In this document: piece by piece, positions 4,060 to 64,000 of the stretch
Layout of the letters: every line of letters starts with the position of its first letter
How positions within the stretch are numbered: position 1 is the first letter of the stretch
Assembly (NCBI RefSeq): GCF_963169125.1
Contig: NC_084801.1
Location: 113,859,061 to 113,923,060 of the forward strand
Length of the DNA stretch: 64,000 bases
Direction of reading: 5' to 3'
From: Humulus lupulus
Taxonomy: Eukaryota; Streptophyta; Magnoliopsida; Rosales; Cannabaceae
Program-made: the position numbers and the translations under genes
Notes under the pieces: generated by a model
The model's database searches: none
Told to the model about the DNA's origin: nothing
Seen by the model: the letters and a program-made list of their open reading frames with translations, nothing else

Positions 4060-6444
4060 TGTAACGACCCAAATTTACTAATAAGGCTTAAGGGCCTTGA
4101 TTAGTGTGCCGGGAGGGCATAACTGGATTATGAGTGATTTAAATGATTAAATGCATGCTTATATAATTAATTGGATAAATGTGACGCATGACTATGTGTA
4201 CTAGTATGCATGTAGGCCCTGATTAGGTTCTAAGGATATATTCGTAATTTTGGCATGTTGAGGACATAAATGTAAATATTTGTGATAAATTGTAGATACC
4301 ACATTATTATGTGGATATATTTGTAACCTGTGACTCGGGGCGATCCTAGTGAGTGGTTTAGTGGAAAAGTCAGGGTGGAGATTTATACCCAGCTCAGGGT
4401 GAGTCTGGGGATATTTATGGGAATTTAGAAAATATATTGGAGATTATTTGATATTGAGGAATATAATTGGTGATTAGTTAGGTGTCGGAATGTAAGCGAT
4501 AAATATTAGAGACAATCGAGGAATTAGCGGAAATTGGAAGTAATGACCAAAATGCCCTTAGAATGATTTAAAGGCTTAGGATTTATGGGAGGGCAAATTG
4601 GTCATTTGTTATAAAACCAGGGATAAGTATTACTCTACTTTATGGCTTTAGAGGAAATTGTAGAAAGGCTGAGAAGTTAAAGAAAAGAAGAAGGAAAAGG
4701 AAAGAAGGAAAAATAAAAGTCTCTTTTCTCTCTCGGTTTAGGATTTCTTCTCCATTTCTTGGGGCCTTTTGGAACTGTGGTTCAGAGGAAGGCTAGGTCA
4801 AAGCTTAGCAATTGGGTCCCTAATAAAGCTTGAGGATTTGGCAGGAGTTACTCACCCAATTAAGGTAAAGTATTAAGGTTATTTTTGAATTTCTGAGTTT
4901 TATTGGCATGGATTTCTGAAACTTGGTTTTGATGGAAATTAAGGGAGATAAACATAAGGAGCTGATGAGCTTAGGGTGATACTAAAGATAGCATAAGGTC
5001 GAATTCCCCACTTGAAGTAAGAAATTATAAGCTTGAACACTGGAATTCTGGACTGTTCTGGATCTCTTTTGTTGGATTTTTTAACTTCATGCTCAAACAT
5101 GGTTTTTTCTTTGTTTTGGGGTGCATGTGGCTAAGTTCTATATGGTTGGGTTATGTGGAGAGAGATATAGATGATGGTAGGCTCATTTTGGGGTATAGTT
5201 GTGGTTTGGAAGAGTTTTTGTGGGTTTTGGTTCGAGGAAGTTCGAAGGAGACAAATCTTGGAAGAGAAGTGTTGTAACTAGCGTTGTAGCGCTAGTCTTT
5301 GGGCGGTACACCTGGGTTTTTTGGGAGTTTTGGCTCGGTTTGTAGCACTGTAGCGCCAACTTTAGGGCGCTCTAGTGCTACCCTATTTCCAGAAGGGGAT
5401 TTTTGGGTTATTTCTTAGGGGTTTTGCCCGGGGACTCGGGGTTTGATTCCACCAGCCCGTTTGGTGGAATTATGGCTTCCCGAGGGCTCGGGATTGGTCC
5501 CGGGGTTAAGTTTTGGGATTGAAGTTTGGTATTGGTTCTAACTTATGACCTTGACTAGGTGTACGCTAGGGCTCAAAAGGGATCGTGCTTGAGGGTTGTC
5601 ATCATTGATCAAAGCTACCAGATTCCAAAGGTAAGAAAACTGCACCCGGTTATGTGAATGTATTGGGACTAAGTGCTCCCTATATATGTAAGATGTCATA
5701 GATGGTATTATTCCATGGGACATGTGATAAATGACCTAAGAGTGCTAGAATCAATATTTGCACACAGGGCGCAGCTCGGCCATGGGTAGCTGAGGACAGC
5801 TTGATATTCACTGAGCTCGGTTTAAGCGGGCTGGAGTCAATGGGATAAATAAGGGTTGCGACCTAAGGGCGTCAACCCTAATTGTTATATGTGAATTGGT
5901 TGTTAATGATAATTGATAAGCTTGGTATGCTGGATGCCAGATTATATTGATGTCTTGGACTGTTGAGTGTATGATTACACTTTATGAAGTATCTGATTGT
6001 TGGATTGATGATTATGCTCTGTTATTGTGTTTTCTTGCTGGGCCTTGGCTCACGGGTGCTACGTGTTGCAGATAAAGGTAAGGGTAAAGTGGACCAGTCC
6101 TGAGTGGGAGAGCTTTGAGGCTGAATGTACATAGTCAGCTAATCGGTTGCCACGGCCGAGGAGTGGTACACGATGGGAAAGCCTAAATGTCTGTTTTGCC
6201 CTTAGAGTGGCTAGTAACTGTACTTATAACCTGAAATTTTGTAAACTGTCTTTTAAACTCTATTCTTTTGGGATCCCATGTACTAAAATGTTAATTATAT
6301 GAAATGCAACTCTTGTGACCAAATCTTTTAACCCTAGTTCAATTGTAGTTCTAGTAACACGTTTCTAACTAAATGACTTGATTAGCAAGTCTTGCACTTT
6401 TATAAATACACAGTGTAGCAGTCTTGGCTATCCAGGGCATTACA
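4060..6444 (+). mobile_element. Solo LTR, Tekay/Del-like chromovirus, TSD ctctg
   Basis: A 2385 bp LTR beginning TGTAACGACCC and ending GGCATTACA, flanked by a perfect 5 bp duplication ctctg (4055-4059 and 6445-6449). It interrupts the gag of E1, and E1 gag reads on either side. No internal coding region is present, so it is a solo LTR left by LTR-LTR recombination. The ends match the 5' LTR of the composite element at 61325-63571, which fixes the plus orientation. It has a TATAAAA at 4610-4616 followed by a GA-rich leader, and the splice-like pair described in the findings. Confidence 0.93.
4610..4616 (+). promoter_or_regulatory. TATA box of solo LTR
   Basis: TATAAAA inside the plus-oriented solo LTR, followed about 50-110 bases downstream by a purine-rich stretch and then a CT-rich stretch, a common plant LTR core promoter layout. 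Transcription from here would pass the GTAAG donor-like site at 5631. Confidence 0.5.
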
Positions 6445-21298: not shown

Positions 21299-23605
21299 TG
21301 CAACACCCTGGATAGCCAAGACCGATACACTGTGTATTTGTAATAGTGCAGGACTTGTTAATCAAGTCAAACAGTTAAAAACGTGAATTCTAAAGTCATT
21401 AAAGTGCTAGGGTTAAAAGGTTTTGGTCTCAAAAGATACTTACCATATAATTAAATATTTACATATGGGATCCTAAAAGAAATAGCGTTTAAAAGTCTAT
21501 TTACAAAATTTCCAGTGTATAGAAAACCACCAGCCTTTCTAAAGGCAAAACATAAGTTTATGGTATTCCTGTCCCTGTCTCCCCTCAACCGTGGCAGCTG
21601 AGCAGCTGATCATGTACATTCTGCTCTCAGAGCTCTCCAAATCGAGGCTGATCAAGTTTGCCCTTGCCTTTACCTGCACCACTTAGCACCCGTGAGCCAA
21701 GGAACAACAAGAAAACATATCATATTACATAACAAGCAATAATAATATTTGGGTAACCCTTAAGCACGTCATACACTTAACATACCACAATATTCACAAA
21801 GCATGGAGATTCAACCAAAGAGTCAGCTAATCATCACCCAGCTATACAGCATAACAACTCACCAAACAATAATAACAAACAAATCATATAATAGTCAGGG
21901 TCGAAACTTTAGGTCGCACCCTCTATTTACCCCACTAACTCCAGCACGCTTAAACCGAGCATAGTGCATAAGAAGCTGTCCACACCTACCAGTGGCCGAG
22001 TCGCACCCTGTGCGCTAGTGTAAACTTCGGCACTCTTAGGCCGTTGGTTTACTGTTTACATGGCGTAATACCATCCTTTACAAAGCATACAAAATAGGGA
22101 ACGCTTAGTCCCATTATAATTCCACAACCGGGTGCAGTTTTCTTACCTTTAATTCCCAAGTTCACTGATTACGAGCGGCGCCTCTCAAGCACGATCCGCT
22201 TCCCGATCCCTAGCTTAACACCTAGTCACAACCAAGATAGGGAGTACCATTAATAATCGCGTTAATATTTCCAGGTGGATTTCTAGCTTCCGGGACATCG
22301 AATACCACCAATCACAGTGGTGGAATTGATCCCGAGCACCCTAGGTTAGGTTCCCGATCTTAAAACCCCCAAAAGATCAAAGATGCCCTTAAGGGCTGTG
22401 ACCCCTGAAACCTAGACATGGCCCGCCCCTGAACCAGAGGCTAATCCTCTCTGAAGATAAACATGTGTCGTGGCCCTACCCTGCGGCGCCGTGGCGCTTC
22501 CCCATTGCAGAGCCTCCTTGGCTCTTCTTTGCTTCACAGGGCTGCGATACTCTAGAATAGAGCCGCGGCCCAACCCTTCGTGCCCAGAAAAACCACCATT
22601 TCTAGCCTCCCAACCTTGCCAAAAACCATCCCAAAGCTCCCTAATTCAAAACCCATTGACCACAAGACTTCCAACATGGTTCTAGCAACTCATTCCAACA
22701 GAAACCTAGCTTAATAACTCATTAAAATCCCTTTTAGATTTCTGAAACCCAGTATCTCAAGAACTCTAAAACCAGTCATGCAAACTCAGAATTTAGACTC
22801 TAAATTACAAATTGAAGCTTACCTTATTTGATGAACCACCTCCTTAACAGATTCCTGAGCTAAAACCCAAACTTCTCAGCTTTAATTTAATCCTTAACAT
22901 CAAAACCATAAACACTTTTAATACTCAGCCAAAACTCAGAATTCTAATGCTCAAGAATGAGATTCAATTCTTACCTTGATCCTGGTTGAGTGCTCCTTGG
23001 TTAGAACTAAGCAAATCCCTCACAAATTCAGCACAAAACACAGAATTTCCAGCTGAATTCCCTTAGGTTTCAGTAGTTTCCTTAAGAGAGAAAAGAGAGA
23101 GAATAGAGGAGCAAAAATATGTCAGTTTGTGTCTTTTGTTCTACTACTTTATGCTTACTTAGTCTAATCTTAACTAATAAAACCAATCCCGAGGCTTGGG
23201 GTACCAAAAACGTCCCCGAGGGCAAAATGGTAAAATTACCCAATATTCCCGCCTAGGCTTCCTAACCTCAAATATATCTCCATATATTTATTTCCATAAC
23301 CCGAGCAATCATCTAATACCCGAATTACCCCTTGACTCGCCCCAAGTCAAACATTAAGCCCCGTTGTGACTTCCCGCTAACTAGCTCCCTAGGATCACCT
23401 CGAATCGCACGCTGCAGACTTACCCACATAATAATGTGGTTCTCACAAATATAACATATAATCACATTTACATTAATATAACCATACAAGCATGTTTATC
23501 ATATAATCACACATTAACTTAATAAACACACACATAAGCGAATTATGCCCTCCCAGCACACTATTCAAGGCCCTTAAGCCACATTAGTGATTTTGGGTCG
23601 TTACA
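21299..23605 (-). mobile_element. Solo LTR, Tekay/Del-like, TSD cattt, inside copia B
   Basis: 2307 bp, minus orientation: the minus strand opens TGTAACGACCCAAA at 23605. The left end is TGCAACACC (expected TGTAACGCC). Perfect 5 bp duplication cattt at 21294-21298 and 23606-23610. The copia B polyprotein linker between integrase and RT reads on either side. Same subfamily as 4060-6444 and 61325-63571 by its termini and its shared GGTAAGAAAACTGCACCC motif. Confidence 0.93.
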
Positions 23606-23610
23606 CATTT

Positions 23611-24740
23611 GAACTTCGTGTTCATAGCATATGGGTTGCTTACTAACCCTCCCACTACGACGAGGCTCTCTACTATTCTAACTGGAAGTAGCAGTTTCTT
23701 CTTGTCATTTTTCATAGGTTGTTGCCGGTGACTTTGCAACTTCATTCGAGACCATTTCCTCTAGTACGACCTTACTGCGAGGTTTGTGGTTATTGACATA
23801 GTCATGTTCAAGGAAAGTTGCATTTGTCGATACAAATGTTTTATTTTCTTTTGGACTATAGAAAATTCCACCTCTTGTCTCTTTGGAATAGCCCACAAAC
23901 ATGCACACTTCAAAGCATGATTCCAACTTCCCCATCTTTCCTTTAAGCACATGTGCAGGACACCCCCAAATTCAAAAAATGGTGTAAACTAGGTTTACAA
24001 CCATTCCATAATTCCATGGGTGTCTTCTGGATAGATTTAGATTGAACAACATTCAATATGTATAGAGCACATTGAATTGCATAGCCCCAGAATGACAGTG
24101 GTAATGATGAGAAGCTCATCATTGATCTAACCATATCTAGTAACGTTATGTTCTTTCTTTTTGAAACACCATTTTGTTGTGTCGTTCCAGGTGTTATGAG
24201 TTAGGATTGAATACCATGCTCACGCAGATGGTCCCCAAATTCAAAATCCAAGTACTCTCCTCCTCGATCAGATCGAAGAACTTTCAGTGATTTACTTAAT
24301 TGCTTTTCAGCCTCTGCTTGAAATTCTTTGAACTTTCCAAAAGTTCCAAATTTTTTTTGCATTAAGTATAGGTAACCATATCTTGAATAATCGTCAACAA
24401 AAGTGACAAAGTATTCATAACTTCCTCTTGCTTGTACATTAAGTGGACCGTAAACATCCGTATGTACTAGCTGAAGGGGTTCTGTAGCTCTTGAACCTTT
24501 AGCAGAAAATGGTCTCTTGGTCATCTTGCCTTCTAGACAGGATTCACAAACAGGGAGAGATCCAATAGATAGTTCTCTTAAAGGACAGTCCTTTACAAGC
24601 CTATTAATTCTATCTAGATCAATATGGTCCAATCTTAAGTGCCACAGATATGTTTCACTATCGGAATCAGTCTTTTTTCGTTTAATAGATCTAGGATTAG
24701 CTGTTTTAAATAATTCAGAATTAAGTAAAAAAATTGTCAT
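23611..24740 (-). pseudogene. Copia B integrase, active-site Glu changed to Lys
   Basis: Minus-strand copia integrase. 24201-24740 has the zinc-binding N-terminal domain (LWHLRLDHID, then CESCLEGK) and the catalytic core with LVHTDVYGPL (first Asp), FVDDYSRYGYLY and SDRGGEYLDFEF (second Asp). After a stop the strand reads QQNGVSKRKN, where copia integrases normally have the catalytic Glu (GVAERRN type); here that position is Lys. Then comes SFWGYAIQCALYILN at 23943-24134. The linker region after integrase is at 23705-23950 (FVGYSKETRGGIFY). Would insert cDNA into chromosomes, but the residue change and stops argue against activity. Confidence 0.85.
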
Positions 24741-33374: not shown

Positions 33375-34691
33375 GCGAGGAACGAGATCTCCGTTTAAAC
33401 GAGCAAGTTTATAGGTGCCTGGGCAAAGGACTTCTTCAATCTGGTATGGCCCTTCCCAATTAGGTCCGAGTACTCCAGTAGCTTGGTCGCGAGTGTTTAG
33501 AAAAACTCTTCGGAGTACAAGATCTCCAATGCTGAACTTTCTTTCTCACACTTTAGAGTTGAAATACCGGGCGACTTTTTGCTGGTACGCAGCTACTCGG
33601 AGTTGGGCTTGCTCACGTTTTTCTTCGATTAAGTCGAGGGATTCCATCAATAGTTAGCTGTTTGACCCTTGGTCGTACGTTATTCTGCGATGCGGAGGCG
33701 GATCTAACTCAATAGACAACATAGCCTCATAGCCATAAGCCAAAGAGAATGGAGTATGACCCGTTGCGGTTCGGTGGGAAGTTCTGTACGACCAAAGTAC
33801 TTCAGGCAATTGTTCTGGCCACACCCTCTTAGCTTCTTCTAGTATTTTCTTCAATGTATCCTTTAGCGTTTTGTTGACTGCTTCAACTTGTCCATTTGCT
33901 TGGGGATGAACGACTGAATAAAAGCTCTTGATAATGCCATGCCGTTCGCAAAAGTCCGTGAATAAATCACTATCGAACTGGGTGTCGTTATCCTAGACAA
34001 TCTTCCTTGGCAATCCATAGCGAAAAATGATGTTCTTGATCGCAAAATCCAGGACCTTCTTGGTCATTATGGTCGCGAGTGGCTTGGCTTTGGCCCATTT
34101 AGTGAAGTAGTCGACGGCAACCACGGCGTACTTGACGCCGCCCTTCCCTGTGGACAAAGATCCAATCAAATCTATGCCCCAAACTGCAAATGGCCCCGGA
34201 CTTTGCATCTCTTTAAGCTCATTAGGGGCTGCTCGCGGGATCTTGGAGAACCTCTGACACTTGTCGCACCTTCGTACAAACTCCATCGAATCTTCATTCA
34301 TCGTGGGCCAAAAGTATCCTTGCCTCAGTATCTTTTTTGACAAGCTCTGCCCCCCAGCGTGGTCTCCACAAAAGCCTTCGTGTACCTCTTTCGTCAACTC
34401 TTTGGCCTTCTCTTTCGAAATACACCTAAGGAGTGGCATTGAATATCCCCTTCGGTATAAGATTCCATCGACCATGATATACCTAGCAGCCTGTCGCTGA
34501 AGGGTTCTGGCTTTGTTTCTGTCTATTGGTAATATTCCTTGCGTTAGATACTCTATATATGGTGTCATCCATGCATCCGTCATCTGGATAACCATAGCGG
34601 TCTCCTCTGCTTGGATGCTTGCCATTGTTAGCCGCTCAACCGGCACTATATTCGGAGTATCAGCATCCTTCGAACTTGCTAATTTGGCCAA
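33375..34691 (-). pseudogene. E3 integrase
   Basis: Minus-strand gypsy integrase. 33993-34691 has the zinc-binding HHCC domain (EVHEGFCGDH, then CDKCQRF), the core start WGIDLIG (first Asp) and AVDYFTKWAKAKPL. A single stop follows RKIV at about 33996; the frame then reads DNDTQFDS (second Asp) and HPQANGQVEAVN (catalytic Glu), WSYRTSHRTATGHTPFSLAYG at 33654-33854, and the C-terminal module with LVLRRVFLN and GPYQIEEVLCPGTYKL to LVPRYWN near 33375. All three catalytic residues can be found, but three stops break the frame. Confidence 0.88.
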
Positions 34692-34838
34692 AGCATCAAC
34701 ATTGGAATTCTGGTCGCGAGGTACTTGCTGGAGACTGTATTTTTTTAACTAAGCCAATAGATCTTTTGTTTTGTTCAAATAGGCAACCATCTTTAAACCC
34801 CATGCCTGGTATTCTCCCATGACCTGATTCACCACCAG

Positions 34839-35521
34839 CTAAGAATCACTATAGATGTCAACCATTTTTATATTCATGTCCCTGGCTAACCGCAATCCAA
34901 CGAGTAGTGCTTCATACTCGGCCTCATTGTTAGAAGTAGTGAAGTCAAACATGATTGCACAGTGAAATCGATGCCCCTCCGGCATTATCAATATCACTCT
35001 TGCCCCAGCGTGGCACTCTTTAGATGAACCATCTGTAAATAATTTCCACGTGGGAGCTTGGTTTTGACATTCAGGCTCATTAGGCTCTTCAATCTGCTCG
35101 TCATCCGTAAGTTCAGTGAATTCTGCAATGAAGTTAGCCAGGGCTTGTCCTTTTATCGTTGCTCGCAGCAAGTAAGATATATCGAACTACCCCAGTTTGA
35201 CTGCCCATTTTAACAATCTCCTATAGCCTCTGGTTTTTACAGGACTTGTCATAGAGGCTGGTCAGTGAAAACTGTAATTTAATGAGCTTGAAAGTAAGGC
35301 CGCAACTTCCTGGAGGCCAAAACTAGGCAATAGGCTAGCTTCTCGATGGGCGGGTACCGCCATTCTACTCCAATTAGCCTTTTGCTTACATAGTAAACAG
35401 CCTTCTGCACGCCTTCTTCCTCCCTTACTAAATCAGCACTAGCAGCATATTCCGTGATCGCCATGTAGATGAACAAAGTTTCTTTATCGACCGGCTTTGA
35501 CAGCATGGGTTGTTGCGCCAT
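34839..35521 (-). pseudogene. E3 RNase H
   Basis: Minus-strand RNase H. 35279-35521 carries the RT-RH connection (FIYMAITEYAASADLV, GVQKAVYYVSKRL, WRYPPIEKLAY). 34839-35171 carries WKLFTDGSSKECHAGARVIL (first Asp), [17 protein letters not shown] (Glu) and YSDS (second Asp). Stops around 35172-35278 separate the two halves. It is one of the better preserved domains of the element. Confidence 0.88.
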
Positions 35522-35545
35522 ATGTGCTTTTAGTGCTTGAAAATC

Positions 35546-36534
35546 CTATTCGCACTCCTCCATCCATTCAAACTTTTTATTGCCCCTAAGTAGATTAAAG
35601 AATGGGACGCACTTATTTGTTGACTTTGAAATGAATCTACTAATAGCGACAATACTTCCGGTTAAGCTTTGAGCATCCTTAATCTTTGCTAGCAATTTCA
35701 TGTCGATCAGGGCTTTAATTTTCTCGGGATTGGCTTCAATTCCTCTTGAGTTAACTATAAATCCCAAGAACTTCCCTGATCCTACTTTGAATGAGCATTT
35801 AACGAGATTTAGCTTCATCTTATATTTGTTCAAGACGTTGAAGCACTCCTGCAAATCTTTTACATGCCCTTCTGCTTTCTTCGACTTGACCAGCATGTCA
35901 TCGGCGTAGACCTCCATGTTTGTGCCGATCAGCTCCTTAAACATGTGGTTGACGAGTCGCTGGTAAGTTGCACCAGCATTTTTCAAATCGAATGGCATCA
36001 CTTTGTAACAGTAGAGCCATGTATCAGTTCGAAAGCTAGTGTGATCCTCATCAGGGGGATGCATACTAATCTGATTGTAACTAGAGTACGCATCCATGAA
36101 AGAGAGGATCTCATGTCCTCTAGTGGCATCGACCAGTTGGTCGATTATTGGGGGTGGGAAACAATCTTTGGGGCAGGCTTTATTTAAGTCTGTAAAATCC
36201 ATGCACGTACGCCACTTGCCATTCTGCTTGGGAACTAGTACGGGATTATAGACCCACGATGGATAAAACGCCACCCTGATGAACCCATTCTCCTTCAGCT
36301 TCTCGACTTCTTCTTTTAAGGCTCTTGATCTATCTTTGTGAGCAACCTTCTCTTTTGTTGCACTGGTGGAAAACTCTTGTCGATGTTTAGGACGTGGCTG
36401 ATGACTGCAGAAACTATCCTGACAATGTCTTTGTGGGACCAGGCAAAGACCTCCTGGTTCCTCCTTAAAAACTCCACCAGTGCTTGTTTTGTTGTTGTCT
36501 CTAAGTTTTTACTGACTTTCATAACCCTGGTCAA
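35546..36534 (-). pseudogene. E3 reverse transcriptase
   Basis: Minus-strand gypsy RT. The conserved pre-RT segment is at 36316-36534 (VFAWSHKDI, VISHVLNIDKSFPPVQQKRR). The RT open frame is 35546-36274 and runs from PVLVPKQNGKWRTCMDFTDL through LSFMDAYSSYNQI and the catalytic box YADDMLVKSK to KFLGFIVNSRGIEANPEK and FFNLLRG. The Gly of MDAYSGY is Ser here. The RT frame itself is uninterrupted over 242 codons. Confidence 0.9.
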
Positions 36535-36849
36535 ATTTTCTTCATCGAGTTGGAGCTCTTCAAGGTCCTCGATGGGCCCAACTTCTTCCTCAAAATCCCT
36601 AAAGCGAGGATCTAAATCCCTATCCTCACTTTGGGCAATGCCCTATTTGGTGACATTATCACTCGAGTGGGCCTGAGCATCAGTTTCCATTTGCAACTCT
36701 TTCCCGTGAACATCTCTCGATACACCCTTCTTCTCCTTGGTGATCGAGGAGTTGTAGCACTCCCTTGCTTCACGCTAATTTCCCAATACACAACCCATCC
36801 CTGCGTCTGTTGGGAATTTCATGGGGAGGTGCCATATCGAGGTGATAGC

Positions 36850-37158
36850 TCATAAGTCAACCAGAATCGGTCTCCCAATTATAGCATTGTATGCTGAAGG
36901 ACAATCAACTACTATGAAAGTAGTGAGTAATGTCCTATTAGCAGGCGCAGTACATGCTGTAACTGGAAGCCTAATCGACCATGTTGGGGTGAGCCCTTCA
37001 CCTGAAAAACCATAAATGGTTGGGTTGCATGGCTCCAGGTCTTTGACGGACAGCTTCATTCTTTCCAGCGAGGACTTGTATAGGATGTTAACCAAACTTC
37101 TTGTGTCGACCAACACCCTTTTCACCATCATATTGGAAATTTGTACGTCCACGACCAC
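36850..37158 (-). pseudogene. E3 aspartic protease
   Basis: Minus-strand retropepsin. The active-site segment reads VLVDTRSLVNILY, so the catalytic Asp is present but the Gly that follows in D-T/G-G is Arg. The C-terminal signature is AYNAIIGRP. The frame is open for 102 codons. Replacement of the active-site Gly suggests loss of activity. Confidence 0.8.
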
Positions 37159-37499
37159 CGGATCAGAGTGTGGGAATCATACGTGATGGGCATCATCATC
37201 AGAGAAGGTTATTAATTCCTCCTCTGTACGAGCCTTTTCTAGTGCTCAATCTTCCACACTCATCATCTCGATGTCCTGGTCGTGGCGTAGGGTTCGAGCA
37301 TATCGTTCCCTTGCCTTCCCACTGTCTCCTGCAAGATGTGGGCCTCCGCAGATGGTGAGTAAAGTGCCTGCCACATGAGCTGGCTGTAGAGGTGGCAAGC
37401 ATTGGCGTGCAGGCGCCTGCTCGTTGCCACCTTGAGCCTCTCGCTGAGAACCTCCTGCGGCTCGCACATATCTTCTCAAATGTCCCTGCCTTATTAGGA

Positions 37500-39562
37500 A
37501 CTCAATCTCGTCCTTCATCTAGTTACATTCATTGGTGTAGTGCCCGTAGTCATTGTGAAAACGACAGAACTTCGTCGTATCTTTCTTGGAGATATCTTTC
37601 CTTATAGGTGTAGGTCGTTTGTAAGGCACGCTTGAGCTGGTCGCCTGGTAGACTTCAGCTCAGCTTTCAAGAAGGGCCGTGTAGTTTGTGAATCTCAGCT
37701 CATATTGATTTCCTTTGGGGTGCTTACTCTCAAAAGCCGAGGGTTCATTGTTCGCCTGCTTTCCACCATTTCTACCATTGCCATTCCCGTTGCCTTTGCC
37801 ATTTCCATTGGGTTTTTTCGACCCGTTAGCGGCTTTGGTGGGTTCTTTGGGCCCCTTGTCTTTATTTGGCGATTTCCCTTCGTTGGCAATCACATCTTCG
37901 AGCTTGATATATCAATCAGCCCGATCAAAGAACTCTTGGGTACTTCTAACCCCATGCTTTCTGAGGCTACTCCAGAGGGGTGAATGGCGCCTAACTCCAG
38001 AAGTTAGAGCCATCATCTTACCTTCATCACCCACTGTCTTGGCTCCAGCTGCAGCTCGCATGAAGCGTTGGACATACTCTTTCAAGGGCTCTCCCTCTTT
38101 CTGTTGTATCTCGACCAGCTGGTTGGACTCTGTGGGGTGTACACGACCCGTGTAGAACTGTCCATAGAATTCCTTCAGGACCATTTCCCAAGATACTATA
38201 CTAGCAGGAGGGAACTTGAAGAACCACTCCTGAGCGGTATCAGATAGTGTCGCAGGGAAGATCCGGCAGCGGGCATCTTCCGACACTTTTTATATGTTCA
38301 TTTGTATCTTGAACTTATTAACGTGAGATACGGGGTCTCCGTACCAGTCGAAATTTGGCAACGTAGGCATCTTGAACTTACTGGGGGTTTTGACCGCAGA
38401 AATCCTCTGTACGAAGTGGGTGCCCCTCCTCCTATCGTACTCGATATGGGACGTTCGTCCCCCAAATAGTTGTTGTACTACCTGGTTCAGGGCATCAATC
38501 TGAGCCTGAACAGCTTCCGGGACTGCTGTGGCCGCTGGTGCCGGGGGAGCGTACTTATCGTGCCTCTCACGGCGGTCATTAAGTATGTCCCTAAGATCAT
38601 CGTCTCTGCTCGCTAGCTCATAGCCGGCTAAAGACGTTCGGCTGCCTGGGCTGCCCCCCAGCGTTGTGTCTAACTGACTTATTTTCTTTAGGTGGGGGGC
38701 TTCTGCCTCCACCTCTTTCTTCATTTCTCCGGCCAGCATTTCCTCTACCAAAATCAGCTTCATTATAGCCATGTCCATCTCTGAATTGTGGCTGACTATG
38801 GCGTCACCGGCTGTTCACGCTATTTCCTCCTTGGGGTGGCATCTCGAGAGCGTCAGGGGGAGGCCTGCGCTAGTCGTTGGGTCCCCGTGCATTGTTATGC
38901 CGTGGGGGGCCCCTGACCGCAGATCCTGACTCTGTGTTCCTTCTGTTGGCAGAAGGACGCTGTCCCCTGCTCGGTAGATTCGGCTCTTCAACCCCTGGGC
39001 GTCTAGGGCTGCGGGGCGATTGCCCGGCCCTATTCTGCCTTGGGCACTGGGGATTGCCTCGACCTGCCTGGGATGGAGGCTGCTGCTCAGGATCCCTCGG
39101 TGGGACATCATCCTGAGCCATAGGCGGCTGCTTCGGCCTTTAAGGGCTTGCTGGCTGGAGCAGAGGGCTAGGATTGGGACCTCTTTGAGGTGGCATGTTT
39201 GGTGGCTGATCTGGCTGGGAGGCTGGCGCAGCCTGATTCCTTGCCAGTTGGATGGCTGCTTCAAGGGCGGCCATGGCATCCCTCTGCCAACGATCCATCT
39301 CAGCCTGCCGCTCACTTAGCTCCTGACGCTGGCGTTCTATTTCTCTTTGCTGCAGCGCCATCGTCACCGTAGCATTCTCTTGATTGGCCCTAAGATTGGC
39401 CAACTCATCTTTCAACACTCCTAGCGTTTCCCTCAATGTTTCAAAGTCTAGTTCCTCCTCATCAAACTCCAAATGTGGTTCATTCTCGGCCACATTTGGG
39501 GGAGGAGGTTGGGATGGTGCAGCGCCAGCAGCCTGTCCAGTCTTATTGGATGTTTTCGCCAT
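37500..39562 (-). pseudogene. E3 gag
   Basis: Minus-strand capsid precursor starting at the ATG at 39562 (MAKTSNKTGQAAG), about 30 bases after the PBS. The N-terminal 140 codons contain a coiled-coil-like stretch (LKDELANLRANQENATVTMA and EIERQRQELSERQAEMDRW). A Pro/Arg-rich linker follows (38815-39121). The gag core at 37912-38778 has MPTLPNFDWYGDPVSHVNKF, CRIFPATLSDTAQEWFFKFP and MVLKEFYGQF. The tail at 37660-37893 is Lys/Gly/Asn-rich, and the Tat-type knuckle FCRFHNDYGHYTNEC lies near 37520-37575. Stops break it into five open segments. Confidence 0.87.
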
Positions 39563-53670: not shown

Positions 53671-54178
53671 TGACATATCTTTAGCAAGCGATCAGACTAG
53701 CCAACCAAACCTAATTTTACATATCTCAGGCAGACAGGAAACTAAACTAGCTAGCTCGACCAATTTTACATATCTCAAGCAAGTAGGCAACCAGACTAGC
53801 CAGCCATGCCCAAATTTACTAATCTCAGGCAGGTAAGAACCCAGTCTAGCCAGCCAGCCCAATTTTACATATTTTAGGCAGGCAGGTAGGCAACTAGACT
53901 AGCCAGCCACGCCCAATTTGAAATATGTTAGGCAGGCAGGCAAGTAAGCAACCAAAGTACCAACCAGCCTAATTTTACATATCTCAGGCAAGCAGGCAAC
54001 CAGACTAGCCAGCCAGGCCCAATTTAACATATCTCATGCAGGAAAACAACAAGACTAGACAGTCAAGCACAATTTGACATATCTCAGGCAGGTAGGCAAC
54101 TAGACTATCCGACCAGAGCTAGTTTTACATATCTCATGCAGGTAAGCAGGCAACCAGACTAGCCAGCCAGGTGGCCAA
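53671..54178 (+). repeat. 50 bp minisatellite in element F 3' region, about 10 copies
   Basis: Units of about 49-55 bp built from ACATATCTCAGGCAGG, GGCAACCAGACTAGCC and AGCCAGGCCCAATTTT, repeated about ten times. One further unit half lies left of the solo LTR at 51765-51791 (GGTCAGGCCCAAATTGACA). Unit length varies through extra GGCAG or GTAA steps. Confidence 0.9.
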
Positions 54179-55333: not shown

Positions 55334-57690
55334 TGTAATGCCCCAAAATCCCTAATGAGGTTTAATGGTCGGATTAATAGGTCGGGAGGGCCATAATTGA
55401 TTTATTATGCAATTAAATGATTATATGCATGATTATGTGAATTATATTATCATATGATGATAAATGCATGCATGTGGGTCCATTTTTCATTATAAGGGCA
55501 TTTCGGTAATTTGGCCCATTAAGGGCATATTTTTATATTTTCATGCATGTTGGTGAATTATTGATGAGACCACATTATAATGTGGATATGTTCAAGCTAT
55601 TCAGCATGAGACAATCTTTGAATACTGGTTACTAGTTTGGTCATAACAGGGTTAATTTCAGGGCATAGGGTGAGTCTCAGGGTAATTTGATGATTAGTGC
55701 ATCACCAGGAATTAAAGGGTAATGGCGTATGATTTATTAGCATTTGAGAATATTGTAAATAGCTGGAATTGGAGGACATTAATTATAATTAACGAGATAG
55801 GCAGGAAAGGACGTTTTTACACTTGTTATCCTTAAGAGGGAATTTAATGACCTAGGGGCATTTCGATCTTTTGACCATGGGATATACAAGGGAATCAAGC
55901 CTTACGGATCTAGGATTGTGTTCTACCATTGAAGAGGGTTTAATCTTGAGCTTGAGGTAAGATTTTAGCCATGGAAACTCTGGTTTTTACTCTGTTTTTC
56001 ACTAATTTTCAGTTGGGATTTTTGGATTGGATAGTTGAGAATTCATTGAAGTGTTTGGAAAAGTTTGATTGGGTTTTGATGCGTAGGACTTGTAGAATAA
56101 ATTTTTGGGTTCATTTGTGAGTTTGGTTGAGGTTTGGAATCAGTTCTTGAAGATTGGAAATTGGAGAAGTCGAAGGGGAAAAACAAGGGCTGAAACACCC
56201 TAGCTCTAGCGCTACATTGCCCAAGGATGGGCGCTATAGCGCTGTCTAGGGCATGTGAGCCCTGCTTGTAGCACTAGGGGGCAGCACTATAGCGCTACCC
56301 TATTTTTCCAAGGTACTATTTTGGGTACTTTCAACGGTTTTTGGCTCGGGGTTTCAATTCCTAGGGCTCGGGATCGAATCTACTAACCGTTTGAGTACGA
56401 TTCGAGGTTCCTGGAGCGAGGTTTTAGATCATGAACCTTTTACTATTGATTTTATTGATGGAGTTGCTTATTTGGTTGTGATTAGGTGACCGGTAAGGGA
56501 TCAAAGGATCGATGATTCTCAAGGGTCGTTTTTAACTTGTTTCACGCTCAAACTAGAGGTAAGAAAACTGCACCCAATATGTGACATGCATGGTTATTGA
56601 TGAGGCACGTTGAGTGCTCTAAATGTGGACATTGATTGCATATTAAATGCTTCGCAATCTTGCTTACTTGTGAGTGGCACTGACTTATTAGTCAGAATCG
56701 GCAATGGTGTCAGTACTGACTGTGAAGCTGTGACTCATTAGTCAAGTTCGGCAGTAGTACTGAGCACTGTTCCTATGGTATTGGCTTATGAGTCAAGAAC
56801 AGTATTAGCGTGTTTAGCACAAGCCAAAAAGATTAGATCTAATCGACATAAGCATTATTGTCATAAGCATGAAATGCTTGACAGACCTTAAGTTCGATGA
56901 AAACAAAAGCGCTTGTCTAGTATAAAGGTTAGTTACTTAGAGCCAGGGCCAGAAAGCCCAGGTGATTGCATCGTCACATGGCTATGGGTGCGGAGCCCAA
57001 GTTCGTGACTCACTCATTAGTCACTCATTTGATTCAAGTTCGTGACTCCATAGTCACTTATCTAGTTTAAGTTCGTGACTTACTCATCAGTCACTTATAT
57101 AATTAGGGTTACACGCCCCAGCATGATTATTAGAATCTCGATACCATCTGATTAGGGCTACACGCCCCAGCATGATTATTAGACTCTTGATATTATTTGA
57201 TTAGGGCTACAAGCCCAGTATGATTATCATAATCATCAATTGATATTGTATACATGCAGTAATGAGTTTTCTTGTTGAGCCTTGGCTCACAGGTGCTATG
57301 TGGTGCAGGTAAAGGGAAAGAAAAGCTCACCCAGCCTTGAGTGGAGAGCTTAGGCGACGATGTGTACATATGCGGCCGCTTGACCACCACAGCCAAGGTG
57401 TTTCTTAGGGGAACTAGGGGTTAACCCTATTTTTGCCGCTTAGGTTGGCGGGTTGTAATTTTTACACTTTAATGACCATTTTGGATTGTAAATAACTTGT
57501 AAACATTTTTTTGGGCCCATCTATAGTTTTATGTTTTAAATAAAATATATCCTTTCCTTTTGATCGAGAATTTTTCACCCTGGCCTATTAATAACACCTA
57601 GATGCACGTTTATAACCAAATGACTCATTTAGCGAGTTAAGCACTGTTTAAAGTTCATAGTAACGGTCTGGGAGTAACCAGGGCGTTACA
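55334..57690 (+). repeat. E4 5' LTR
   Basis: 2357 bp, TGTAATGCCCC to GGGCGTTACA. Homologous in layout to the solo LTRs: AGGTAAGAAAACTGCACCC at 56558, and CCTTGGCTCACAGGTGCTA before GTGCAG at 57308. Three tandem copies of a block with TTCGTGACTxxxTxxTCA...CACT lie at 57000-57090, and two with TACACGCCCCAGCATGATTA at 57112-57180. Confidence 0.9.
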
Positions 57691-57705: not shown

Positions 57706-58112
57706 TCCTGTAGACTGGCTGGGCATGTAGACTCACCACTGAAGACAAGCTCGACTCATGGTTTTGTAACTATTTATGTGGTTATATATTTAACTGCTTA
57801 AATAAAGCATAAATGCTTTACCTGTCTACATGAAATACATTAATAAGGTTGGGCCTTGACAACTGCATCATAAGCAAGAACGTGCTTATTAGTACTAATA
57901 TTGCTTGAACATATTAGTATTATTCATTATGAATTATTAACTGATACGTGTTAAATGCTAAATTCTATGATCATGTATCCATTTGTATACCTGTATAATT
58001 GTGGAATATGGGTGAATATCTGTTGATCTTGGACCGTGAGGCGACAAGAGGTTTAGTTATCACTACCTAACTGGCCGCATTTACTATTGCAACAAGTTTT
58101 AAGTTGATAAGA

Positions 58113-59117
58113 ATGATTCCAAGACAGACAGATTCACCAGTTGGCCAGGAAGATCAGGGCCAGAATAATAGACAGTGTCAAGAGAATGACCAGAATCAGA
58201 TTCCACAGCCAGCTCCTGATAACTGGCAGCAGCTGTTTAATGACTTACAGGCAAGAGTATTGAGGCAGGAAGAAGAAATCTGCCTCTTAATGCAACAACA
58301 AGTTCCTGCAAGGAACAGTTTACCTGAGGCACCACCTGTATCGGTGCCAACAGTTGAGCAGCTACCAGAGGTTGGAAGCAAATGGGAACCTCTTTATGAA
58401 AGGTTCAGGAAATAGCAACCTCTAGTTTTTTAGGGTAGTGCAGATCCAGCTAAGGCAGAGCAATGGATGAGCATGATTACCACCAGCCTTGACTTCATGA
58501 GGGTGACTTGTAATGAGAGGGTGGCCTGTGCCACATACATGTTTCAAGAGGATGCCCGAATTTGGTGGGAGGTTATATCCCAGACTAGAAATGTCAATGC
58601 CTTGAGTTGGGAAGAGTTTCAGACTCTGTTAAATCAAAAGTACTACAATGATGCTATCAGGGCTACTAAAGCTGAAGAGTTCATTAGATTACTTTAGGCG
58701 AGTCTATCAATGACTGAATATGCTCTAAAGTTTGATCGATTGTCAAAGTTTGCCATGGAGCTGGTGCCCACTGATGGGACCAGAAGGGAGAGGTTTCTCT
58801 AGGGCTACAACCTAGTTTAGCCCGGGATGTTCGTATCACCACTGTGGCTGGAGTTACTACTTATGCACAGGTGGTGGAGAAGGCGCTCATAGCTGAGAGC
58901 GCAGAGAACAAGATCTAGTGGGACAATACAGCCAGAAGAGAGTTGAGGAGGACAGGTCCTCCATTTATGGGTTTAGCTAAGAGTGGAGGCCCCAGTGATT
59001 AGAAGAGGAAGGTTCTTGATACCTTCCCAGCTCCAGGTCCCGGTAGGCGACCACGTGGTATTAGAATGGGTCGTCAAGGTAGTAGTGAGGCCTAGAAGAC
59101 TTATCCAGAGTGCCCTA
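58113..59117 (+). pseudogene. E4 gag, interrupted in the zinc knuckle
   Basis: Plus-strand gag from the ATG at 58113 (MIPRQTDSPVGQ). Gln-rich N-terminus with NWQQLFNDLQARVL. Core at 58467-58697 with TSLDFMRVTCNERVACATYM, ARIWWEVISQTRNV and FQTLLNQKYYNDAIR. Beyond a stop comes MTEYALKFDRLSKF. The frame ends in YPECPMC, the first half of a CCHC knuckle, at 59101-59119, cut by the composite insertion. At least three stops and a frameshift around 58790-58850. Compared with the gag of the composite it is about the same length. Confidence 0.8.
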
Positions 59118-59489
59118 TGTGACAGTCATAATCCCGTGATCCATAAGGGGAAAGACCGGGTTAGTTGTGCAATCCCACACTGCCTGGGGAAGGTCAAGTG
59201 TAATGATTCTAAGACTGTGTAGGTATGGGACTGCACAGTTGAAGAGGGCTTAAATGGATTGATAGGTACTATCTATATCAAGAAGGTGCATCTTCTTTTC
59301 GGTAGCCCATCACTTGAGAACTCCATGGTTAAGCGTGCTTGGCCTGGAGTAATCTAGGGATGGGTGACCTCCTGGGAAGTTTTCCCAGGAAGTGTGCGAG
59401 TGAGGACAAAGCACGCTGGAAAGACTTGTCTTGGTTTGTAGGGCCAGTCGTCATTCCAGAAAGCAGCCATAGTGACGTGGGGCGTCACA
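59118..59489 (+). repeat. Cassandra-type LTR with 5S rRNA-derived segment
   Basis: 372 bp from TGTGACAGTC to GGCGTCACA, with 6 bp inverted termini TGTGAC/GTCACA. It contains a 5S-like segment with the RNA polymerase III control boxes. Cassandra elements are non-autonomous TRIMs whose LTRs carry 5S-like sequence and depend on other elements for proteins. The right flank taacc does not match the left flank cccta, so it is not a simple solo LTR with its own duplication. Confidence 0.82.
59283..59395 (+). other. 5S rRNA-like segment inside the Cassandra LTR (not a functional rRNA gene)
   Basis: Matches plant 5S rRNA in the middle: CCCATCA...GAACTCC, GTTAAGCGTGCTTGG (A-box, about 59328-59342), GGGATGGGTGACC (intermediate element and C-box, 59358-59369) and CTCCTGGGAAGT (to 59380). 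The ends diverge from 5S (start GGTGCATCTTCTTTTC). The internal pol III promoter appears kept, but the sequence differs too much from 5S to be ribosomal. Confidence 0.85.
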
Positions 59490-59790
59490 TAACCAGCCAA
59501 TCCATACCTAGAATCATATCAAAGTCCTCCATACTCAACTCAATCAAGTCTACTGATAACTCCCTACCATCAACTAACACTGGCAGTGCTCTAATCCACC
59601 TCCTAGATACTACCAGTTCTCCTGTAGGCAACATAGTCCCAAATCCTGAAGCACTATACTCACTAGGTCTACATAGTCTATCAATCACCTTATCAGATAC
59701 AAATGAATGTGTAGCACCAGAATCAATCAAAACGGTAAAGGGAATGCCAGCACTAGAAAGATGACATGTCACTACCGAGGGACGAGCCTC
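59490..59790 (-). pseudogene. E2 aspartic protease, cut at the Cassandra junction
   Basis: Minus-strand retropepsin: TVLIDSGATHSFVSDKVIDRL holds an intact D-S-G active site, then FGTMLPTGELVVSRRW and FDMILGMDWL. The domain ends normally with GMDWL, and the next codons (VM then stop) come from the Cassandra LTR, whose first base in this direction is 59489. The 95-codon frame is open throughout. RT should follow but is missing. Confidence 0.85.
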
Positions 59791-60931
59791 GGCCTCCGCC
59801 TACGTCAAAGTGAACACTCGAGCTGGAGTCAAGCTATCCACCTTTCCTGTCTTCCCCTTTTTCACCGTCGGACAATCCTTCCTGAGGTGTCCCACCACCC
59901 CACACACATAGCAGGCCTTAGCCCGACACTCGCCCGGATGGCGCCTCTTGCACCTCGTGCACTTTGGATAAGTCCTCCATGAATCATCGCCTCCCTGACG
60001 GCCGCCCTGAGTACCCCGACCTCTCCTATCAGGACCAGAAGCGATCGGAGCATCAGGAGTCTTTCTTTTCAAATCAATGGGGCCTCCGCCCCTACTAGAA
60101 CCAGAATATGGAGGCACCACCCTGCGACCCTCCCTTCTTGCTGTACTATCCCTCCATATCCTATTTTCCCGCTTCTTCAGCGGTCAGAGCTCTCTCCAAA
60201 GACTGGGCATAGGTAGTCACTCCAGGAACTGTGGTAATTCTTACATCTCAGGCTATCATAACATTCAGCCCTCTAATAAATCTGTCCTGCCTGGCTGCAT
60301 CAGTAGGCACAAGATCTGGTGCAAACTTCGCAAGTCTATCGAACTTCAAGGCATATTCTATAACTGTAAAACTGCCCTGAACCAGTCCCACGAACTCATT
60401 CACTTTCGCTGCCCTGATGGCAAAGTTATAATACTTCTGATTAAACAAATCCTTAAACCCTTCCCAAGTCAATGTAGCAACCTCTCTAGTCTGTGATGCC
60501 ACCTCCCACCAGATTCGGGCATCATCCCTTAGCATATAGGTGGCACAGTCCACCCTATCATGCCCTTCCACTCTCATAAAATCAAGGATAGTAGTGATCA
60601 AAGTCATCCACTGTTCAGCTTTCAGTGGATCTGGTCAACCCTCAAAGATCGGGAGCTGGTGCTTCCTGAACCACTCATACAACGGTTCCATCCTGTTCCC
60701 AACATCAACTGGCTGTACCACAGGTACCAGTGACGGTGGCACAACAGGGGCAACACTCCTAGATGGAGCCTGCTGCAGAATTCGGATCTATTCGTCTTGG
60801 CTCTGAAGCCTAGCTTGCATTTCTGCCATTAACTGCTGCCAGTTCTCAGGGACTGGCGGAGGGGTCGGGCCCTGGTCATCATCTCTAGCCCCTGACCTGC
60901 TGGCTAGTCGTGTGGATTTCCTTGAACGCAT
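59791..60931 (-). pseudogene. E2 gag
   Basis: Minus-strand gag with likely start at 60929-60931 (MRSRKSTRLASRSG). N-terminus with WQQLMAEMQARLQSQDE, then a stop. Core at 60248-60607: TTILDFMRVEGHDRVDCATY, ARIWWEVASQTREV, FKDLFNQKYYNFAIRAAK and EYALKFDRLAKF. Knuckles at 59840-59940: CTRCKRRHPGEC and the perfect CCHC box CYVCGVVGHLRKDC. The stops include TGA in a position where CGA is likely (MIA*DVRI near 60245), as expected from methylated-CpG decay. It is much better preserved than the E4 gag. Confidence 0.85.
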
Positions 60932-61308
60932 AACTATTCAAGTCAATTTGCAATCAACGACTCGGCAATTAGGCTATGATGACAGGGTAATAATCTTTCC
61001 ACAATCCATCACTGAAACTCCACTCATTCACAAGCAATCAAAGTATAGCAATTTATCCAGATATTCATCCACATGCACAGCAATGCTAATGAACACGCCT
61101 CAATAACATCATGCAATAGTCAAGGGCCAGGCCCTATCAGTATCTCATGCTCCCTATTCATCAAACAGATATCAACAATCATATCTCACTCAAATCATTT
61201 AAGCACATAATCATGCATACACAATTACCAAACCCTGAGTTGAGCTTGTCTCCTGCGGTGAGTGTAGTGTACATATCCAGCCAGTCTTCAGGACCCATAA
61301 ACCTAGGA
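60932..61308 (-). other. E2 5' leader
   Basis: 377 bases between the E2 PBS and the gag start, AT-rich, with no feature recognised apart from being the untranslated leader. Confidence 0.6.
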
Positions 61309-61321
61309 CGCTCTGATACCA
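61309..61321 (-). promoter_or_regulatory. E2 primer binding site
   Basis: The minus strand reads TGGTATCAGAGCG, an exact initiator-Met tRNA-type PBS, three bases from the LTR end (GGCGTTACA). Confidence 0.9.
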
Positions 61322-61324
61322 AGT

Positions 61325-63571
61325 TGTAACGCCCTGGATAGCCAAGACCGTTACACTGTGTGTTTGTAAAGTGCCAGACTTGCTAATCAAGTCATTTAAA
61401 TAAAATCGTGTCATTGAAACTATAAAGGAACTAGGGTTAAAAGCATTTTGGTCTCAAAAGCCACATTTTCATTAAGAAGTATCATCTGTTACATGGGATC
61501 CCAAAAATATTAAGTTCAAAGACCGTTTACAAAAGACACAAGGTTTATGTACAACAACTGGCCATACTAAGGCAAAACAAGCAGTTAGGTGATCCCTGTC
61601 CTGGTCCATTCCTCGACCGTGGCGTCGAATCGCTGGCTATGTACATTTCACCTCGGAGCTCTCCACCTCGGGCTTGGTCCAGCTTGCCATTGCCTTTACC
61701 TGCACCACGTAGCACCCGTGAGCCAAGGCCCAGCAAGAAAACACAACAACAACAAAGCATAAGCATTATGCAGTCAACTCAATATCTCACATTGCATCAC
61801 ATAGCCTCAATCAAACAACCATTCAATATAGTCAAGTATTCCTCATACTAGGCATATCAATTCTGAACATACACAGTTTATAACGATAACCAGGGCTAGC
61901 ACTCATAGGCTGCTCCCTCTGTCATCCCAGTGTTCATGGCTTCAAGTGGCCAAATCGCGCTCTACGCGCTATTAGTATGTACGACACCCTTAGGCCGCTT
62001 TTACATGTCCCATGGCGTGATACCAACATTGACACGATACAACTCACAGGAGCACTTAGTCCCATCACAATCATATACCCGGGTGCAATTTTCTTACCTT
62101 TAGCTTTCAGATGAATTAGCTACGGGCGACACTCCTTGAGCGCGATCCGATCCTCGAGTCCTAGCTAGACACCTAGTCACAACCATGAGGAAAGACACCA
62201 TTAACAACCTTAAATGAGTTTCCAAGCCAAGTTCTAGTACTCGGAACATTGAACTTCACCAAATATAGTAAAAGACTCAACCCCGAGCACCCTAGGTTAA
62301 ATTTCCAAGCCTAAAATCTTAAAATCCCAAAATCCCTTAAGCGCCGCGGCATAGGCCACCCATGCCGCGGCATGGCTCCCAAACAGAACCTACTAAGGCC
62401 CAAAAATAGGTAAGGGCCGCGAAATTTCTTGGGCCATGCCGCGGCCCGCCCTCCTTCCTCAGCAAGCAACAACTTCGAAGGGCCGCGACTCACCAAGAAC
62501 CATGCCGCGGCCCGATCCTTCGAACTCAGAAAAAACCACCATTTTCAATCCCTAAACCTCACCTTAATCCACCCCAAAGCCCCTAACTCAAAACCAATTG
62601 ATAATAACAACATTAGAATTATTTAAGGAACACAACCCAACCACAAATCCAGCCCAAGACTCACCAAAACCCCAATTCCAACTTCTGAAATTTCAAACCC
62701 ACAGAACTCAAAACCATTCATGGAAACTCTCAAATTCAACCATCAAACTATAAATTAAACCTTACCTCAGCTGTAGAATCGATTCTCCAAGAGTCCCCTG
62801 ACCTATCTTCAATGTTTCAAGCCTCATTTTCCACCTTGAATGTCAAAACCATAACCATTTAAAACTCAGCCATTTCTTTAAGTTCCTAACCCCAAAAATG
62901 AAAATTCAAAACTTACCTTAGCTCTAGCTCAGACCTTGATCAGTTCCTGGGCTAATCCTCCAGACTATTTCCCCAAATTCTAGCTTAATTCCAGCAATTC
63001 CCTCTCAAGTTCAGTAGTTCTTCCTTTGCTAAGAGAGAAGAGAGAGAGAAGAAGAGTTAGGGTCGGTTTACACTTTTCTGTCTAGTATCTTCTAAGTCTT
63101 CCAAGTATATCCTTAGTTTATTAGACTAATTCCAAAGCTCGGGGTGCCGGAAACGTCCCCAAGGCCAAAATGGTAAAATTCTCCAATAATCCCGCCTAGA
63201 CATCCTAACCTCAAATATATCTCCAATTATTTATTTTCATCACCCGATAGTCTAAATCACTACCTGATACCTAAAATACCCCTGACTTGACCAAAGTCAA
63301 TTATAATACCCCGTTGTGAATTTTCCCATTATCTAGCCCTAGGATCGCCTCGAGTCGCCGGCTGTAGAATTATCCACATCATAATGTGGTTCTCGCATAT
63401 ATCTCAAACATTTATACCACATCATCATATAATATCATCAGTTATCATAAACACACAATTAATAATATATTTACGCATTTAAATCAATAGCATTCATTCT
63501 AATCCCAGTTATGCCCTCCCGGCACATTAATCAAGGCCCTTAAGCCTTATTAGCGAATTTGGGTCGTTACA
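61325..63571 (-). repeat. E2 5' LTR
   Basis: 2247 bp, minus strand TGTAACGACCC to GGCGTTACA. Closest in this window to 4060-6444 and 21299-23605. It holds the conserved donor-like GGTAAGAAAATTGCACCC (62097 side) and acceptor-like GTGCAG (61700), and a CCGCGG palindrome cluster at 62340-62515. Confidence 0.92.
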
Positions 63572-63576
63572 CCCTA

Positions 63577-64000
63577 GGTGCAAAAGGCGCCATTTTGGGA
63601 GAGTGTAGGGCAAAGGGGTAGTGGGACATTTCAAGAAAGATTGCCCAAAAGCAAAAAAGGAAGAACCCCGTATGGCGGACAGCTCAGCCCCATCTTTAGT
63701 GTTCACATTGACTCAAGCAGAAGCTAAGACTTCACCCTCAGTAGTTACAGGTTAGCTTCTTAGTGCAGGAACCCCTTTTACTGTTTTGATTGATTCTGGT
63801 GCTACACATTCTTTTGTTGCTAGTAAAATTATTGATAGACTGTGTAGACCATGTGATTATTATGCTGTGGGGTTCGGGACCTTATTATCCATTAGGGGGT
63901 TAGTGGTATCTAGGAGATGGGTCAGATCTTTGCCAGTGACAGTGGAGGGCAGAGAGTTGTCAGTGGATTTGATAGAGTTAGTTATGACTGACTTTGACAT
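63577..64000 (+). pseudogene. E4 zinc knuckle and protease, right of the composite
   Basis: The plus strand resumes the knuckle (PRCKRRHFG), then a stop, then a second knuckle ending GHFKKDCPKAKKE, VFTLTQAEAK and a stop before the protease. The protease starts TVLIDSGATHSFVASKIIDRL with an intact D-S-G active site and continues through FGTLLSI, VVSRRWVRSLPV and LSVDLIELVMTDFD to the window edge. It aligns closely with the E2 protease at 59490-59772. Confidence 0.82.

Follow-up and report, generated by a model that had tools for sequence, protein, structure and literature searches.

A Cassandra LTR and 5' Ty3/gypsy sequence in inverted orientation within a single target duplication in Humulus lupulus: a possible joint integration

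Cassandra elements are terminal-repeat retrotransposons in miniature (TRIMs) with long terminal repeats (LTRs) that, in the published passages considered here, carry a 5S-like boxA and boxC 18 nt apart (PMC7215508) and are roughly 200-400 bp in length (PMC10853983). Kojima 2024 states that nothing points to an autonomous family mobilising Cassandra (PMC10886601). In the passages considered from Gao 2016, 11 of 289 TRIM subfamilies have larger relatives, of which four are putatively autonomous, and no such relatives are said to have been reported for the TRIMs known earlier (PMC4717578). In the table that Sabot and Schulman 2007 compiled for ~7 Mb of Triticeae sequence, only 2 template-switching complexes appear beside 400 LTR insertions and 70 solo LTRs, while recombinant complexes number 20 and other recombination events 220 (PMC1950507). 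Here we describe a locus in a 64-kb stretch of Humulus lupulus DNA (NC_084801.1, positions 113,859,061 to 113,923,060, the whole of which is called the window and is numbered from its first base), where a complete Cassandra LTR and the 5' part of a Ty3/gypsy element (E2) are enclosed by one target duplication within a second, decayed gypsy element (E4).

The insert of 4454 bp (59118-63571) breaks the zinc knuckle of the E4 gag and has cccta on both edges, the left copy at 59113-59117 and the right copy at 63572-63576. The left copy stops right where the Cassandra LTR begins (59118), the right copy follows directly on the final E2 LTR base (63571), and the match falls on the exact bases fixed by the LTR tips; two random 5-mers with this composition would match with p ~0.0011. 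In an empty-site model, from which the insert and one cccta were removed, the zinc-knuckle reading frame of E4 was closed, and the flanks joined through one CCCTA read ...KTYPECPRCKRRHFG... in a single frame, resembling the E2 sequence YPKCTRCKRRHPGECR. Signs of E4 decay in this translation included one stop directly upstream of KTYPE and, 3' of the joined segment, a short frame disturbance and one further stop before GVVGHFKKDCPK returned in the same frame. Because the E4 frame closes over one CCCTA and a chance match has such a low probability, the CCCTA pair around the insert is a real target duplication. An earlier sequence-only reading of this DNA had placed cccta outside the Cassandra LTR and outside the E2 LTR, E4 gag on both outer sides, one target duplication around both families, and the right end of Cassandra against the E2 protease at 59489/59490 without a duplication, and all of these placements were borne out.

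The two parts of the insert are inverted relative to each other. The order of the published Cassandra query on one strand is boxA, boxC and primer binding site (PBS) in the passages considered (PMC7215508), and the sense strand of the Cassandra LTR is therefore the plus strand, while E2 is in sense on the minus strand with its PBS at 61310-61321 (minus). A unique 3' (U3) end is consequently found at each outer edge of the insert, that of Cassandra on the left and that of E2 on the right, and the unique 5' (U5) end of Cassandra lies inside. Each of the two families is represented by only one LTR at the locus.

The Cassandra LTR (59118-59489, plus strand) is complete at 372 bp, begins with TGTGAC and ends with GTCACA, so that it is bounded by TG...CA and falls within the published length range. 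Its 5S-like domain features an RNA polymerase III boxA at 59327-59338 (plus) matching the published motif RGTTAAGYRHGY exactly and, 18 nt past it, a boxC at 59357-59369 (plus) matching the published RRRATRGGTRACY exactly. Such pairs at a spacing of 15-25 are expected by chance ~3e-6 times in the 64-kb window, and a search of the window for the boxA-boxC pattern returned this single Cassandra copy. A wider 5S rRNA-like stretch (59286-59400, plus) was weak, with 17.6 bits and an E value of 0.91 for Rfam model RF00001, where the gathering threshold is 38, and this score below gathering weighs against the Cassandra identification. The Met-tRNA PBS TGGTATCAGAGC that follows the 5' LTR of Cassandra was absent here, as expected for a lone LTR. 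Because no PBS-like site was present in the 200 bases to the right of 59489 with up to 3 mismatches allowed, the Cassandra internal region is taken as missing and the identification is that of a Cassandra LTR rather than a whole element.

The right part of the insert contains, in E2 order on the minus strand, an intact LTR, a PBS, gag, a zinc knuckle and a protease. The 5' LTR of 2247 bp (61325-63571, minus) has intact tips and its U3 end forms the outer right edge of the insert. It is followed by the PBS TGGTATCAGAGC, by a gag capsid piece at 60248-60634 (minus; Pfam Retrotrans_gag, 1.3e-17), by a gag zinc knuckle piece at 59800-60183 (minus; Pfam zf-CCHC, 4.6e-06), and by a protease fragment at 59490-59799 (minus; Pfam RVP_2, 9.5e-23, and protein relatives) that ends in GMDWLV. 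From a reading of the translations, the E2 gag-protease is interrupted by four in-frame stops and changes frame once. Two solo LTRs related to that of E2, each within a perfect 5-bp duplication, served as controls and support the E2 LTR tips; they lie at 4060-6444 (plus; duplication CTCTG) and at 21299-23605 (minus; duplication CATTT). The gag, zinc knuckle, retroviral protease, Met-tRNA PBS and long LTRs fit a Ty3/gypsy element without singling out Tekay, and the lineage name Tekay is not confirmed because the insert ends inside the E2 protease and includes neither reverse transcriptase nor integrase.

A protein search with the E2 protease gave 140 relatives at E<=0.001, and the best 120 of the 140 were used. 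The top relative by E-value had 83% identity; named relatives among the best 120 of the 140 included proteins from Cannabis sativa and Ulmus minor, with 46-59% identity, and, at a greater distance, from Vigna, Acer and Coffea. The inner junction of the Cassandra U5 end with this protease (59489/59490) carries no duplication of Cassandra's own, as the neighbouring bases differ, being TAACC on the right and CCCTA on the left. The GMDWLV motif was present in 94 of 121 proteins (the query and the best 120 of the 140 relatives), where V was followed by R in five, by K in two and by C in at least one of the 94, and most of the motif-bearing proteins had another residue in the place of the V of E2. 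The last E2 bases weakly suggest native sequence up to the junction with no visible filler, a test that comes down to one base. Searches of prokaryotic and viral collections, which are uninformative for plants, returned no copy of the exact 20-base Cassandra/E2 junction in genome contigs or in viral contigs, no boxA-boxC pattern in viral contigs, and none confirmed as an E2 protease relative among 38 pattern-matching stretches in viral contigs.

We tentatively favour, with confidence and doubt nearly in balance, a single integration into E4 of one DNA molecule in which a Cassandra LTR was linked, in inverted relation, to the 5' part of an E2 complementary DNA (cDNA), an event that would have given the single cccta duplication. 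A joint integration accounts in one step for the inner joint, for the exactness of both tips and for there being one duplication; on this reading the two parts were probably joined before the integration or in the course of it. Two routes to such a molecule are conceivable. In the first, plus-strand strong-stop DNA of Cassandra would miss the transfer to its own PBS and continue synthesis on the protease region of E2 RNA, and the E2 strand would then complete its own LTR. Plus-strand strong-stop DNA spans about one LTR, from the start of U3 to the end of U5, and because it has about that extent this first route would account for a single full Cassandra LTR, although not for the lack of a tRNA-end copy. 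In the second route, integrase would strand-transfer the U5 end of a Cassandra cDNA into an E2 cDNA and a later recombination between LTRs would leave one Cassandra LTR, a course of events that would account for the U5 joint. By either route, an E2-type integrase would finally join the two U3 ends to the target. The joint cDNA, the two routes to it and the part played by an E2-type integrase are inferred from what is established about how LTR elements replicate. Somewhat more doubtful is the fuller proposal that a Cassandra DNA intermediate and an E2 cDNA came together in one particle with one integrase, were joined in inverted orientation and entered the target through two U3 ends.

Similarity in the ends of the two families is compatible with a shared integrase. 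The U5 tips of Cassandra (GGGCGTCACA, 59480-59489) and E2 (GGGCGTTACA, 61325-61334, minus) agree in 9 of 10 bases, a level of agreement with the E2 U5 tip (at least 9/10) that was reached by 11 of the 8283 ten-mers ending in CA on both strands of the window. Cassandra supplies one of these 11, and seven are LTR tips of E2 (counting the reference itself), of E4 or of the two solo LTRs, while the other three lie at 5301 (within a solo LTR), 27151 and 53661. The PBS of E2 is also identical to the published Cassandra PBS. The agreement in U5 tip and PBS may thus reflect one integrase acting on Cassandra and E2, and it serves as a lead only, because similar ends are common to many gypsy LTRs.

Several observations weigh against a joint integration. 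The U3 tips of Cassandra and E2 agree in only 6 of 10 bases, and the Cassandra U3 tip with this poor agreement is the very tip that would have been integrated. Strong-stop DNA usually bears a copy of the tRNA end, that is the PBS, beyond U5, and no such copy was found beyond the Cassandra U5 in 200 bases at up to 3 mismatches. The second route requires an additional LTR-LTR recombination, and a nested insertion of Cassandra also leaves a U5 joint in E2 on one side. The evidence comes from one locus, which cannot settle the mechanism, and the titles, abstract openings and passages considered from the literature contain no described case of this U3/U3 geometry.

A nested insertion followed by a deletion, the second hypothesis of the sequence-only reading, is less probable but a serious competitor. 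E2 would have been inserted whole into E4 at cccta, and Cassandra would have been inserted into the E2 protease (target TAACC) and been reduced to a solo LTR. A later deletion, aided by TGT, would then have removed the E2 3' LTR, pol and the left duplication of Cassandra, with the Cassandra tip arriving at cccta by chance. In a variant, Cassandra would have been inserted in a non-concerted manner, its U3 end joining where E4 meets E2 and its U5 end joining within the protease. All of these steps occur commonly in plant genomes, an ordinary insertion would leave just such a joint as that at 59489/59490, and the TGT shared by both LTR tips, which the sequence-only reading had pointed out, is real and provides 3 nt of identity at the junction. 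Recombination was also far commoner than template switching in the Triticeae table (PMC1950507). The deletion endpoints must, however, coincide exactly with both LTR tips, and the observed tip-to-tip junction is one of 14,157 distinct junctions that share at least 3 bases (up to 9) in the modelled stretch. For this count the Cassandra LTR was compared with 1 kb of E4 flank and with one E2 LTR, which took the place of the missing 3' LTR, and the lost pol would raise the number further. The preference for joint integration is nevertheless modest, given that the Triticeae table has ten times as many recombinant complexes (20) as template-switching complexes (2) in 400 LTR insertions.

It is improbable that Cassandra and E2 were inserted separately at the same cccta and that a deletion from the right tip of Cassandra into the E2 protease then removed the middle cccta, the E2 3' LTR and pol. 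The common PBS and the near-identical U5 tip make one integrase with one site preference conceivable, but two coincidences would be required, namely that both elements chose one and the same 5 bp and that the deletion began precisely at the last base of Cassandra. An order of events with Cassandra first and E2 inserted inside it was ruled out by the E2 tip, which is flush with cccta.

Template switching between two co-packaged sense RNAs, with one end from Cassandra and the other from E2, was the first hypothesis of the sequence-only reading and is very unlikely as worded. The single duplication and the TG...CA outer ends are in agreement with it, and template-switching complexes with a 5-bp duplication have been published for plants (PMC1950507). 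When switching takes place between sense RNAs, the parts of the product lie head to tail, U3 is exposed at one outer end and U5 at the other, and the outer LTRs are alike (PMC1950507), whereas the LTRs here are inverted, unlike and both expose U3. The sequence-only interpretation is supported in part: it is right about the single duplication, and its proposed switch, which left orientation out of account, is disfavoured by the U3 ends at both outer edges. An assembly join or other artefact is the least credible explanation since, prone as LTR repeats are to misassembly, a false join is unlikely to close the E4 gag frame with exactly one 5-bp duplication.

The host element E4 is a decayed Ty3/gypsy element on the plus strand in the last 9 kb of the window, which it leaves at its own protease. 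Its LTR (55334-57690, plus) was delimited by LTR-tip matches at 55334 (minus) and 57681-57690 (plus). The decayed E4 gag to the left of the insert extends from about 58071 to 59112 (plus; open reading frames, with Retrotrans_gag at 1.7e-05 in 58434-58697), and gag/protease sequence to the right continues from 63577 to the window edge at 64000 (plus), as seen in the empty-site translation and in a 71% inverted match to E2. Elsewhere in the window, an array of ~9 copies of a ~50-bp unit was located at 53693-54170, pieces of a gypsy-type element with gag, reverse transcriptase and an integrase zinc-binding domain at 33996-38289 (minus), and a copia-like piece with Gag-pre-integrase and integrase core at 24204-24740 (minus). 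Long direct repeats with 88-94% identity (15622-17414/46492-48319, 17506-18669/27419-28559, 18988-19710/40225-40947 and 28558-29228/39556-40225) suggest that paired LTR elements form another nest in the window.

If a joint integration did occur, the locus would provide physical evidence linking Cassandra to a gypsy family primed by Met-tRNA and would represent a new insertion geometry, U3/U3, for chimeric retrotransposons. A chimera within a single duplication would also name a candidate helper family for Cassandra and make the question of its helper testable. Should the deletion account be right instead, the locus would be an ordinary decayed nest of little consequence.

Nested LTR insertions truncated by illegitimate recombination are a known class, and the inner joint described here is like theirs, an ordinary insertion joint. 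A random deletion would not, however, be expected to give the outer duplication and both exact tips that were seen. Template-switching LTR complexes (PMC1950507) are likewise composites of retroelements in one 5-bp duplication and were read as one integration. Their three LTRs belong to one family and are arranged head to tail, the outer ones being alike, whereas this insert shares the one 5-bp duplication and has two families in inverted orientation, with unlike outer LTRs that both direct U3 outward. A Cassandra-gypsy chimera was unreported in the titles, abstract openings and passages considered from the literature on Cassandra helpers and template switching. Compared with the Cassandra TRIMs described in passages of PMC7215508, PMC10853983 and PMC10886601, the LTR has the same 5S-like character, the 18-nt boxA/boxC arrangement, the TG...CA bounds and the length, and the locus differs from them in having one LTR, no internal region found and a fusion to gypsy coding sequence. 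Tandem LTR-retrotransposon structures, in the passages considered from PMC11899658, also place a complex structure in one 5-bp duplication, and their authors keep both integration and recombination open. Those tandem structures are built of alternating direct LTRs and internal regions, unlike the inverted insert of Cassandra and E2 described here.

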